Shown: in pieces, positions 35,016 through 37,954 of the stretch
Numbering within the stretch: the stretch's first letter is position 1
How the letters are laid out: every line of letters starts with the position of its first letter
Virus record (IMG/VR): IMGVR_UViG_3300047554_000187
Coordinates: 1 to 49,037 of that record
Length of the DNA: 49,037 nucleotides
From: a virus
Strand: one strand, 5' to 3'
Made by a program: the position numbers and the translations under genes
The notes under the pieces: model-generated
Database searches by the model: none
The model's input: the letters and a program-made list of their open reading frames with translations, nothing else
Told to the model about the DNA's origin: nothing

Positions 35016-35238
35016 AGGTTACTACCTTAAACTCGGGGGAATCATATACCGCGCAGAGAAATATCAGGATGTTCCTAGAGAACTGCGCTATAACGTTGTC
35101 CCCCATATTAGATTATTTGAATGGTATTTTTATAAGGTAGATGTACGATGGCAGACAATGCAAAGAATGAAAACTATGAAAAAGCAATCCAGTGGGCTAC
35201 TAAGTACCTTGAAAAGAATACTGAACCTAGGGAAGTAA
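34981..35238 (+). CDS. Small basic protein with long overlap, 85 aa
   Basis: ATG 34981 (MQFKRYNFRRVRGYYLKLGG) lies inside the preceding gene. Basic, aromatic first half; the last 30 residues are read from DNA that also encodes the next gene (91-base overlap). A longer start at 34861 is unlikely. The overlap is unusual here, so the C-terminal end or the whole gene is less certain. Confidence 0.45.
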   Translation: MQFKRYNFRRVRGYYLKLGGIIYRAEKYQDVPRELRYNVVPHIRLFEWYFYKVDVRWQTMQRMKTMKKQSSGLLSTLKRILNLGK

Positions 35239-35387
35239 GGTATAAGCAAGGTGTGATTTGTCATAGCGACATTGATATGGTTAAGACTAATCTTAATAGA
35301 TTAATTCACGCCAAAGGACGTGCGCAACAGGCATCTTATAGAGCAATAAGAGAATTTAAAATTTATTTGTCTCAAAATTTGACTTAA
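35148..35387 (+). CDS. Small protein of unknown function, 79 aa
   Basis: Charged, helical (NENYEKAIQWATKYLEKNTE, INRLIHAKGRAQQ-like end). Last gene before the structured RNA region; the promoter for that region overlaps its stop codon. Confidence 0.6.
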   Translation: MADNAKNENYEKAIQWATKYLEKNTEPREVRYKQGVICHSDIDMVKTNLNRLIHAKGRAQQASYRAIREFKIYLSQNLT

Positions 35388-35409
35388 CAAAAACGTTTAC
35401 CTATCTTTG
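35378..35409 (+). promoter_or_regulatory. Promoter of the structured RNA region
   Basis: TTTG (35378-35381), exactly 20 bases, TATCTTTG (35402-35409). This is one of the best matches to the Bacteroidota consensus in the window, and no coding sequence begins within 540 bases downstream. Expected transcription start is close to 35415. Confidence 0.7.
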
Positions 35410-35519
35410 AGTCAGGTTGAAGGAAGTTAGTCACCATATTACCGAATAACACGAAGTCTCGGTGTGAGTAGGGAGGGAGCAAAACATAGTTATCTGAGTT
35501 GGTGTGAGGATAGCTATAT

Positions 35520-35612
35520 AGTCAGGTAGCTTAAAGGTCATAAGGAAATTGACCCTTGAGGATTAGAGCACTCGAAAGAGATGAGGTGCGGGTTCGATTC
35601 CTGTCCTGACTA
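35520..35612 (+). ncRNA. tRNA-like element 3, 93 nt, non-standard body
   Basis: AGTCAGG (35520-35526) pairs perfectly with CCTGACT (35605-35611), followed by A as discriminator. T arm: GCGGG, loop TTCGATT, CCTGT (35588-35604), with two G-U pairs. The body does not give a normal D and anticodon arm. Its strongest helix is GGTCA / TGACC around a 9-base loop, and there is a CTC-GAAA-GAG tetraloop hairpin. A serine- or leucine-type long variable arm was considered, but no plausible anticodon loop was found. No CCA is encoded (ACTA follows). Confidence 0.5.
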
Positions 35613-35673
35613 CTAGAGAGAACCGTTAGTTTTCGGCTGTTTACAACTGGAAAACTAGCAGACGTCATACTCT

Positions 35674-35697
35674 ATGACTGCTGGAAAGACAGCATTT
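35674..35697 (+). repeat. 24-bp direct repeat with GCTG-GAAAGA-CAGC hairpin, copy 1
   Basis: 23 of 24 bases match 35791-35814. Each copy forms a 4-bp stem around GAAAGA and is followed by a short T/A run. They lie between the two tRNA-like elements and could be processing or protein-binding sites. Confidence 0.6.
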
Positions 35698-35790
35698 TAC
35701 TTGTTTAAATATACGACTATAAATATTGGCAATGAGGTTCTCAGTCGTATAACCCTCGATACACGGTTTGCCACTGCAAGGTCGCAAGTA

Positions 35791-35814
35791 ATGACAGCTG
35801 GAAAGACAGCATTT
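35791..35814 (+). repeat. 24-bp direct repeat, copy 2
   Basis: Second copy, ending 2 bases before tRNA-like element 4. It differs from copy 1 only at the sixth base (A for T). Confidence 0.6.
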
Positions 35815-35816
35815 AT

Positions 35817-35937
35817 AGACAATAGGCGGGGGAGGAACACGCACTGAAAGTATGCAAACCTAGAGATTGAAGTCAGGATGAGCTGTCGCATACTACTGAA
35901 GGCTCACATTTCACAGGTTCGAATCCTGTATTGTCTA
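35817..35937 (+). ncRNA. tRNA-like element 4, 121 nt, with large insertion
   Basis: AGACAAT (35817-35823) pairs perfectly with ATTGTCT (35930-35936); A follows. T arm is perfect: ACAGG, loop TTCGAAT, CCTGT (35913-35929). A D-like arm is possible just after the acceptor (GCG ... CGC with a G-rich loop). In place of an anticodon arm there is a long segment closed by AGTATGC (35849-35855) / GCATACT (35888-35894). Too short for a group I intron, too long for a normal tRNA. The 3' flank ACTA is the same as in element 3. Confidence 0.5.
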
Positions 35938-35957
35938 CTAACTAAATAAATAATAAA

Positions 35958-36149
35958 ATGGAAGAGTTCGAATTAAGATTACAAATTGAATATTCAGAGT
36001 TAACAGAGAGAATATCAAAACTAGAAGATTTTATTAACTCTACTCATAGAGCGAAATTATCTAAATCGCACGAAGATTTATTAATGATTCAGTATATGAC
36101 TATGCAATCTTATGCGCAAATTCTGCATACGAGATTACTAGATTTATAA
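35958..36149 (+). CDS. crAss001_48-related small protein, 63 aa
   Basis: The pattern EYSELTERISKLEDFINS, then DLLMIQYMTMQSYAQILHTR, is that of the short helical 'crAss001_48-related' family found in many phages: an amphipathic helix with 'L..RI.KLE.F', then 'Q...M..Y..IL..R'. Function unknown. First gene after the RNA region. Confidence 0.75.
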   Translation: MEEFELRLQIEYSELTERISKLEDFINSTHRAKLSKSHEDLLMIQYMTMQSYAQILHTRLLDL

Positions 36150-37825: not shown

Positions 37826-37861
37826 TTGTTGATTTGATTTTCATAAGTGTGTGTGCGAAAA

Positions 37862-37890
37862 GGTAGCCTGTTATGCGGGCTATCTTTTTT
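37862..37890 (+). terminator. Intrinsic terminator
   Basis: GGTAGCC (37862-37868) / GGCTATC (37878-37884) with one G-U pair and a 9-base loop, then TTTTTT. It ends the operon of 35.9-37.8 kb. Confidence 0.8.
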
Positions 37891-37902
37891 TATTGTAAAC
37901 TA

Positions 37903-37934
37903 TTTGTTTTATAAAAATCAATAACTTATCTTTG
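37903..37934 (+). promoter_or_regulatory. Promoter of the SSB/recombination operon
   Basis: TTTG (37903-37906), 20 bases, TATCTTTG (37927-37934): perfect consensus, 13 bases after the terminator and 20 bases before ATG 37955. Confidence 0.75.
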
Positions 37935-37954
37935 TCAAAGAAATCAATCAAACA

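Follow-up and report, generated by a model that had tools for sequence, protein, structure and literature searches.

An apparent modular non-coding RNA locus of tRNA-like elements and GAC hairpins in a phage of a probable Bacteroidota host

The DNA analysed here (the window), a virus record from IMG/VR with a length of 49,037 bases, carries a terminase and a portal of phage type. Its host is probably a member of the Bacteroidota, because the nearest cultured relatives by terminase, at 32% identity, are the elemo-group phages of Flavobacterium; a megablast search of annotated phage collections found no near DNA relative of the window, and relatives in IMG/VR were recovered through the DnaB-like helicase (29 loci) and a second protein (8 loci). 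One ORF (35148-35387) terminates within a promoter and the next begins at 35958, and the 570 bases between them (35388-35957) contain, among ORFs of at least 45 aa, only ones of 45-64 aa, in agreement with the initial annotation, which had seen no gene in about 0.55 kb. In relatives of one part of this stretch (module B, below) an indel disrupts the reading frame, which counts against a gene there.

The promoter is of the Bacteroidota type, TTTG-N20-TATCTTTG, and lies on the plus strand at 35378-35409, where it overlaps the last codons of the upstream ORF. Its TTTG (35378-35381), 20-base spacer and TATCTTTG (35402-35409) match the consensus exactly, so it was rightly called perfect before. The consensus occurs four times in the window (0.86 expected from shuffles). 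The -7 box, TA[T/C]CTTTG, is kept in 12/12 aligned related loci, and TTTG is present at -33 in 9 of the 12 with CTTG in the remaining ones. A second non-coding gap in the window (37826-37954) also has an exact TTTG-N20-TATCTTTG promoter (37903-37934), directly before ORF 37955. The 5' RNA module (35410-35517, plus strand) is invariably the first element after the promoter, and it closes on the 3' side with a stem, ATAGTTATC/GATAGCTAT, which in relatives abuts either a tRNA-like element (TLE) or the GAC hairpin. The earlier count of at least six hairpins in the region is fair, but the gene-free stretch as a whole folds no better than its shuffles (z -0.55); it is not unusually stable, and the argument for RNA therefore rests on comparison and not on energetics.

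The remaining elements are all on the plus strand and follow one another as TLE1 (35520-35612; acceptor AGTCAGG/CCTGACT and a T arm), RNA module A (35614-35675; closing stem TAGAG/CTCTA), a GAC hairpin (35676-35694; GACT-GCTG-GAAAGA-CAGC-A), RNA module B (35697-35792; end stem TTACTTG/CAAGTAA), a second GAC hairpin (35793-35811; GACA-GCTG-GAAAGA-CAGC-A) and TLE2 (35817-35937; acceptor AGACAAT/ATTGTCT, a T arm and a middle of ~90 bases without an anticodon arm). The two hairpins are carried by the 24-base repeat that had been noticed before, whose copies at 35674 and 35791 are 96% identical. The closing stem of module A covaries, being TGGAG/CTCCA in a distant relative (L403), and module B recurs at 93-97% identity in phage contigs that are unrelated apart from it, one of them 104 kb long. 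Fourteen related contigs have the same two flanking genes (where both are present) and begin with the shared promoter and 5' module, after which come 1-10 cassettes in combinations that differ among contigs: the hairpin only (L015), the hairpin and TLE2 (L006), TLE1 only (L025), or long arrays, the longest being those of L004/L005/L022. Array junctions coincide with element ends, and 1-5 bases separate abutting cassettes. By sequence, then, this is a promoter-led, modular non-coding RNA locus built as an array of cassettes, in which the TLEs are the main cargo and stand apart from one another through the RNA modules and the hairpin. The prior suggestion that selection maintains a dense RNA locus here is supported, since the promoter, the 5' module, the RNA modules and the hairpin are all conserved in relatives and beyond.

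How much of a tRNA is present in the two elements that the initial annotation called tRNA-like? TLE1 scores 35.2 bits with the Rfam tRNA model at 35520-35612, with inserts present and a normal anticodon absent; there is a hairpin insert in the D region and no 7-base anticodon loop, the discriminator position is A, and CCA is not encoded. The Rfam score of TLE2 comes from the T arm alone (14 bits), yet its 7-bp acceptor is perfect, and the name tRNA-like is apt for both. ARAGORN and inspection found no anticodon arm in TLE1 or TLE2, and the G3-U70 alanine pair is missing from them, the third acceptor pair being U-A in TLE1 and A-U in TLE2. That they are tmRNAs was rejected, there being no Rfam or ARAGORN tmRNA match in the window.

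Pieces like those of the window occur in hundreds of other phages, cultured Flavobacterium phages among them, and the two TLEs belong to a large family. At least 120 IMG/VR stretches contain the 25-base 3' half that TLE1's relatives have, its core in up to nine copies per record, and its absence from 395 Bacteroidota genomes led us to reject a host origin. When 180 non-redundant 3' halves were examined, a pairing 5' acceptor lay within 250 bases of 172 (random DNA gives 4.7%), and a leucine-tRNA-like D arm, which was not a selection criterion, accompanied 128. Among 162 full TLEs the acceptor folds in 161 (a count that is partly so by construction because the elements were chosen by their acceptors), the T arm in 140, and the D-loop GG is present in 150. 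The family layout is thus one of constant acceptor ends, a D arm of leucine-tRNA type and a T arm, with a hypervariable middle of 20-150 bases that replaces the anticodon arm; the middles fall into 176 sequence groups among 214 elements. Only four of the 162 have a canonical anticodon arm (5-bp stem, 7-base loop and U33).

This last number bears on the idea, raised in the initial annotation, that the locus is a cluster of tRNA decoys against anticodon nucleases. The elements are real tRNA-like ones and occur in multiple copies, as decoys might, but the arm that such nucleases would attack is in its canonical place in so few of them, ARAGORN calls are hardly more frequent than when the middles are shuffled (60/211 TLEs versus 43-49), and intron-tolerant calls do no better. 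Because the anticodon arm is absent, we consider that idea very improbable indeed. The intron-tolerant calls, which are no more frequent than in shuffled middles, also caused us to reject an intron-containing tRNA.

Could the TLEs instead be decaying phage tRNA genes with degenerating anticodon domains? The loss of the anticodon arm would fit, as would the fact that an occasional genuine tRNA has the same acceptor as the TLEs (the Lys-UUU tRNA of L390) and that a tRNA and a TLE share a slot in the elemo phages (below). Decay should, however, affect the acceptor, D and T arms equally, and unrelated phages have almost the same ends where their middles differ nearly every time; within one lineage the data lean toward lower substitution in the arms than in the middles. 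We judge decay to be improbable. Since the decoding arm is systematically replaced and the ends stay constant, selection appears to act on the non-decoding face of the tRNA. The TLEs retain the parts that are read by enzymes that bind the acceptor and elbow (the 7-bp acceptor, the T arm, the D-loop GG and A73) and lack the decoding part. Bacterial LeuRS is known to dispense with the anticodon, and with the leucine-type D arm and A73 this makes LeuRS a plausible partner for the TLEs.

The middles themselves are less informative. Their folding is only a little more stable than that of control DNA, with a mean z of -0.44 versus -0.21 (p 0.055), and they may therefore be unconstrained. Their great length and hypervariability, and compensatory changes in a few subfamilies (four pairs in the L356/L382/L425 group), would be expected if the tRNA frame were a stable handle and the middle a guide, aptamer or protein-binding domain that diversifies against varying hosts. 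The weak folding signal speaks against such variable-domain RNAs, as does the lack of any excess of antisense matches between the middles and the surrounding phage DNA, and we give them a low probability; the particular case of an antisense guide to the phage's own DNA we reject, as there is no match excess.

The GAC hairpin is much more widespread than the window's relatives. The sequence GCTGGAAAGACAGCAT is found in 117 IMG/VR stretches, and in degenerate scans that left two stem pairs free, these pairs are complementary in 144/152 and 146/149 distinct contexts among the matches listed, the latter pair with all four Watson-Crick types among those matches. A covarying hairpin (U)GAC-N-[4-5 bp]-GAAAGA thus occurs in at least ~290 distinct contexts, with the consensus U GAC N [4-5 bp closed by G-C] GAAAGA [...] A, in which position -1 is U in ~80%. 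In 1.56 Mb of loci that were not retrieved by the hairpin, perfect hairpins with 4- or 5-bp stems number 25 and those with five permuted loops 0. The loop with its flank, GGAAAGAC, is identical to segment 2056-2063 of 23S rRNA, possibly by chance.

The hairpin is found ~20-30 bases upstream of many start codons and 2-5 bases before many tRNAs and TLEs; in the phage contig L102 (793-1257, minus strand) it directly precedes a tmRNA that scores 70 bits with Rfam and begins ~3 bases further on. In L101:4769-5056 (minus strand) it stands downstream of a HEARO (IscB-type omega) RNA and upstream of iscB, and L158 and L164 appear by their sequences to be arranged likewise; the hairpin is therefore used outside phage tRNA loci too. 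In Pseudomonas-type phage contigs (L264, L275, L285, L190 and L212) Proteo-phage-1 RNA lies ~100 bases upstream of it and a terminator-like stem 3' of it, and the curated Rfam family of that RNA may lack its 3' part. In the phage contig L301 (1983-6120) small structured inserts, the GAC hairpin being one, lie between the members of a set of more than 30 tRNA genes. In Bacteroidota-type phage contigs such as L031, L036 and L136 a ~55-base RNA (ACTTGGTTTTGGTAGTTCCAGAAAGGCAAGCCGCTGAACAAAAAC...) lies between a stop codon and the hairpin; it recurs before different genes and could form a pseudoknot, though weakly. The hairpin needs no upstream partner, since its flanks do not covary with it and some copies directly follow a stop codon (L080, L093 and L107).

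Two functions were considered for the hairpin and rejected. It is not likely to be a self-cleaving ribozyme: some copies need no upstream partner, flanking covariation is absent, and the Rfam self-cleaving ribozyme models (HDV-like, hammerhead and others) have no match at or near it. A phage promoter does not fit either, as the covariation of the stem is that of an RNA and terminators follow the copies in prophage-like contigs. As an intrinsic terminator the hairpin would be a weak one: its stem is 4-5 bp long, and outside AT-rich phages T runs are missing after many copies; eight Ts follow it in elemo phages and shorter T runs in the window.

These positions raise the question of whether TLEs and hairpins are mere punctuation, that is, processing signals at which nucleases such as RNase P or RNase Z cleave to separate RNA modules and neighbouring messages, as at the tRNAs of mitochondrial transcripts, with a functionless middle. 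The close abutment of cassettes, the location of hairpins just before tRNAs or TLEs and at a short distance from start codons, and the weak structure of the middles are all as such signals would have it. Against this, many arrays consist of TLEs and RNA modules alone, with nothing else that needs separating, and unconstrained middles would be expected to shrink, when they are in fact as long as given above. We regard pure punctuation as rather unlikely.

Cultured phages bring the locus within reach of experiment. Phage elemoA_7-9A, which infects Flavobacterium sp. BAL314, shows the same locus organisation as the window, in the order -7 box, RNA segment, TLE, RNA module, hairpin GACTGATGGAAAGACATC with T8, and promoter-like box; its TLE is annotated as tRNA-Ala and folds with a 4-base GCAA loop that replaces the anticodon loop. 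Among 68 elemo records with a match, identity over the aligned part is 99% or higher in 59, and only four contain the whole elemoA_7-9A stretch, the others matching from the exact 3' end of the TLE onward. Four of these others were inspected; they have a different 5' segment and, in the slot of the TLE, a tRNA whose anticodon is CAT and whose annotation is tRNA-Met. The allele annotated tRNA-Met is carried by elemoA_15-9B. As judged from these alignments, the slot is a natural cassette swap with TLE and genuine tRNA alleles on one host. In some pairs of elemo phages similarity falls off right after the hairpin and T8, an indication that a transcript ends at the hairpin in these phages. The cultured jumbo phage pT24 of Tenacibaculum (L466) has two 'tRNA-Undet' genes at 191520-192477 that are almost identical to each other and abnormal in the anticodon region, and the unannotated sequence between them may be a further tRNA-like RNA. 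With such phages the TLEs and the hairpin become testable.

We are highly confident of the anatomy taken by itself, namely the promoter, the modularity, the constant tRNA-like ends, the missing anticodon arm and the covarying hairpin. As to function, we propose that a transcript begins near 35,415, that host RNase P and the 3' tRNA enzymes would cut it at the TLEs, and that the GAC hairpin would mark RNA ends, serving as a weak terminator or protective 3' end if a T run comes after it, so that several small RNAs would result. The TLE RNAs would act as tRNA mimics, tying up or diverting a host factor that recognises the acceptor and elbow end of tRNAs, possibly an enzyme or defence effector that works on tRNA 3' ends, and recombination in the constant ends would drive the gain, loss and swapping of cassettes. 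The whole of this proposal, from modular locus, transcription and processing through the hairpin as end mark and tRNA mimicry to cassette recombination, we put forward tentatively, with our doubts outweighing our confidence. We hold with a little less reserve, though still short of an even chance, that phages share a class of RNAs that had gone unrecognised, hypervariable, anticodon-less and tRNA-framed, which are transcribed in cassettes, are bounded by a universal GAC-GAAAGA hairpin and mimic tRNAs so as to counter or stand in for host tRNA-handling functions. The GAC hairpin was not reported by Rfam 15, and the open-access literature on phage tRNA-like RNAs, on Proteo-phage-1 and on the hairpin sequence yielded no description of such elements; our claim of novelty for the TLE family and the hairpin is made relative to Rfam 15 and that literature. 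Lying beside such varied phage RNAs and genes, the hairpin would be a general phage RNA element.

Several known systems resemble parts of this locus. The Bacillus cereus pseudo-tRNA is a non-decoding tRNA-like RNA from a single chromosomal gene, whereas the TLEs are a hypervariable phage family. The promoter early stem-loop cassettes of T4-like phages are small regulatory cassettes for module shuffling; they differ from the present locus in sequence and promoter type, and the latter has tRNA-like cargo. Known Rfam families other than tRNA were rejected, as none matched the locus. Proteo-phage-1 RNA (RF03044) is also a phage RNA associated with the GAC hairpin, which lies ~100 bases downstream, but the Rfam model excludes the hairpin, and its covariance model has no match within the window. 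Theta ribozymes, which are HDV-like and found at tRNA 3' ends mostly in Bacteroidota phages (PMC10879173), are likewise RNA elements that adjoin phage tRNAs; the GAC hairpin differs in being a single hairpin that precedes the tRNA 5' end. Like tmRNA (RF00023), the TLEs have a tRNA-like end domain with a larger insert in place of the anticodon arm, but they are too short for a message domain. Phage tRNA arrays resemble the TLEs in their acceptor, D and T arms of tRNA type, their clustering, their mobility between phages and the elemo slot that either a tRNA or a TLE can occupy; the TLEs depart from them in the missing anticodon arm, the hypervariable middle and the mixing with RNA modules and the GAC hairpin. 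Phage tRNA genes are commonly seen as aids to codon usage, and odd ones are labelled 'undetermined' or dubiously (the elemoA 'tRNA-Ala' and the pT24 'tRNA-Undet'). Selection on the non-decoding face of tRNA, as the TLE family implies it, bears directly on the purpose of phage tRNA clusters.
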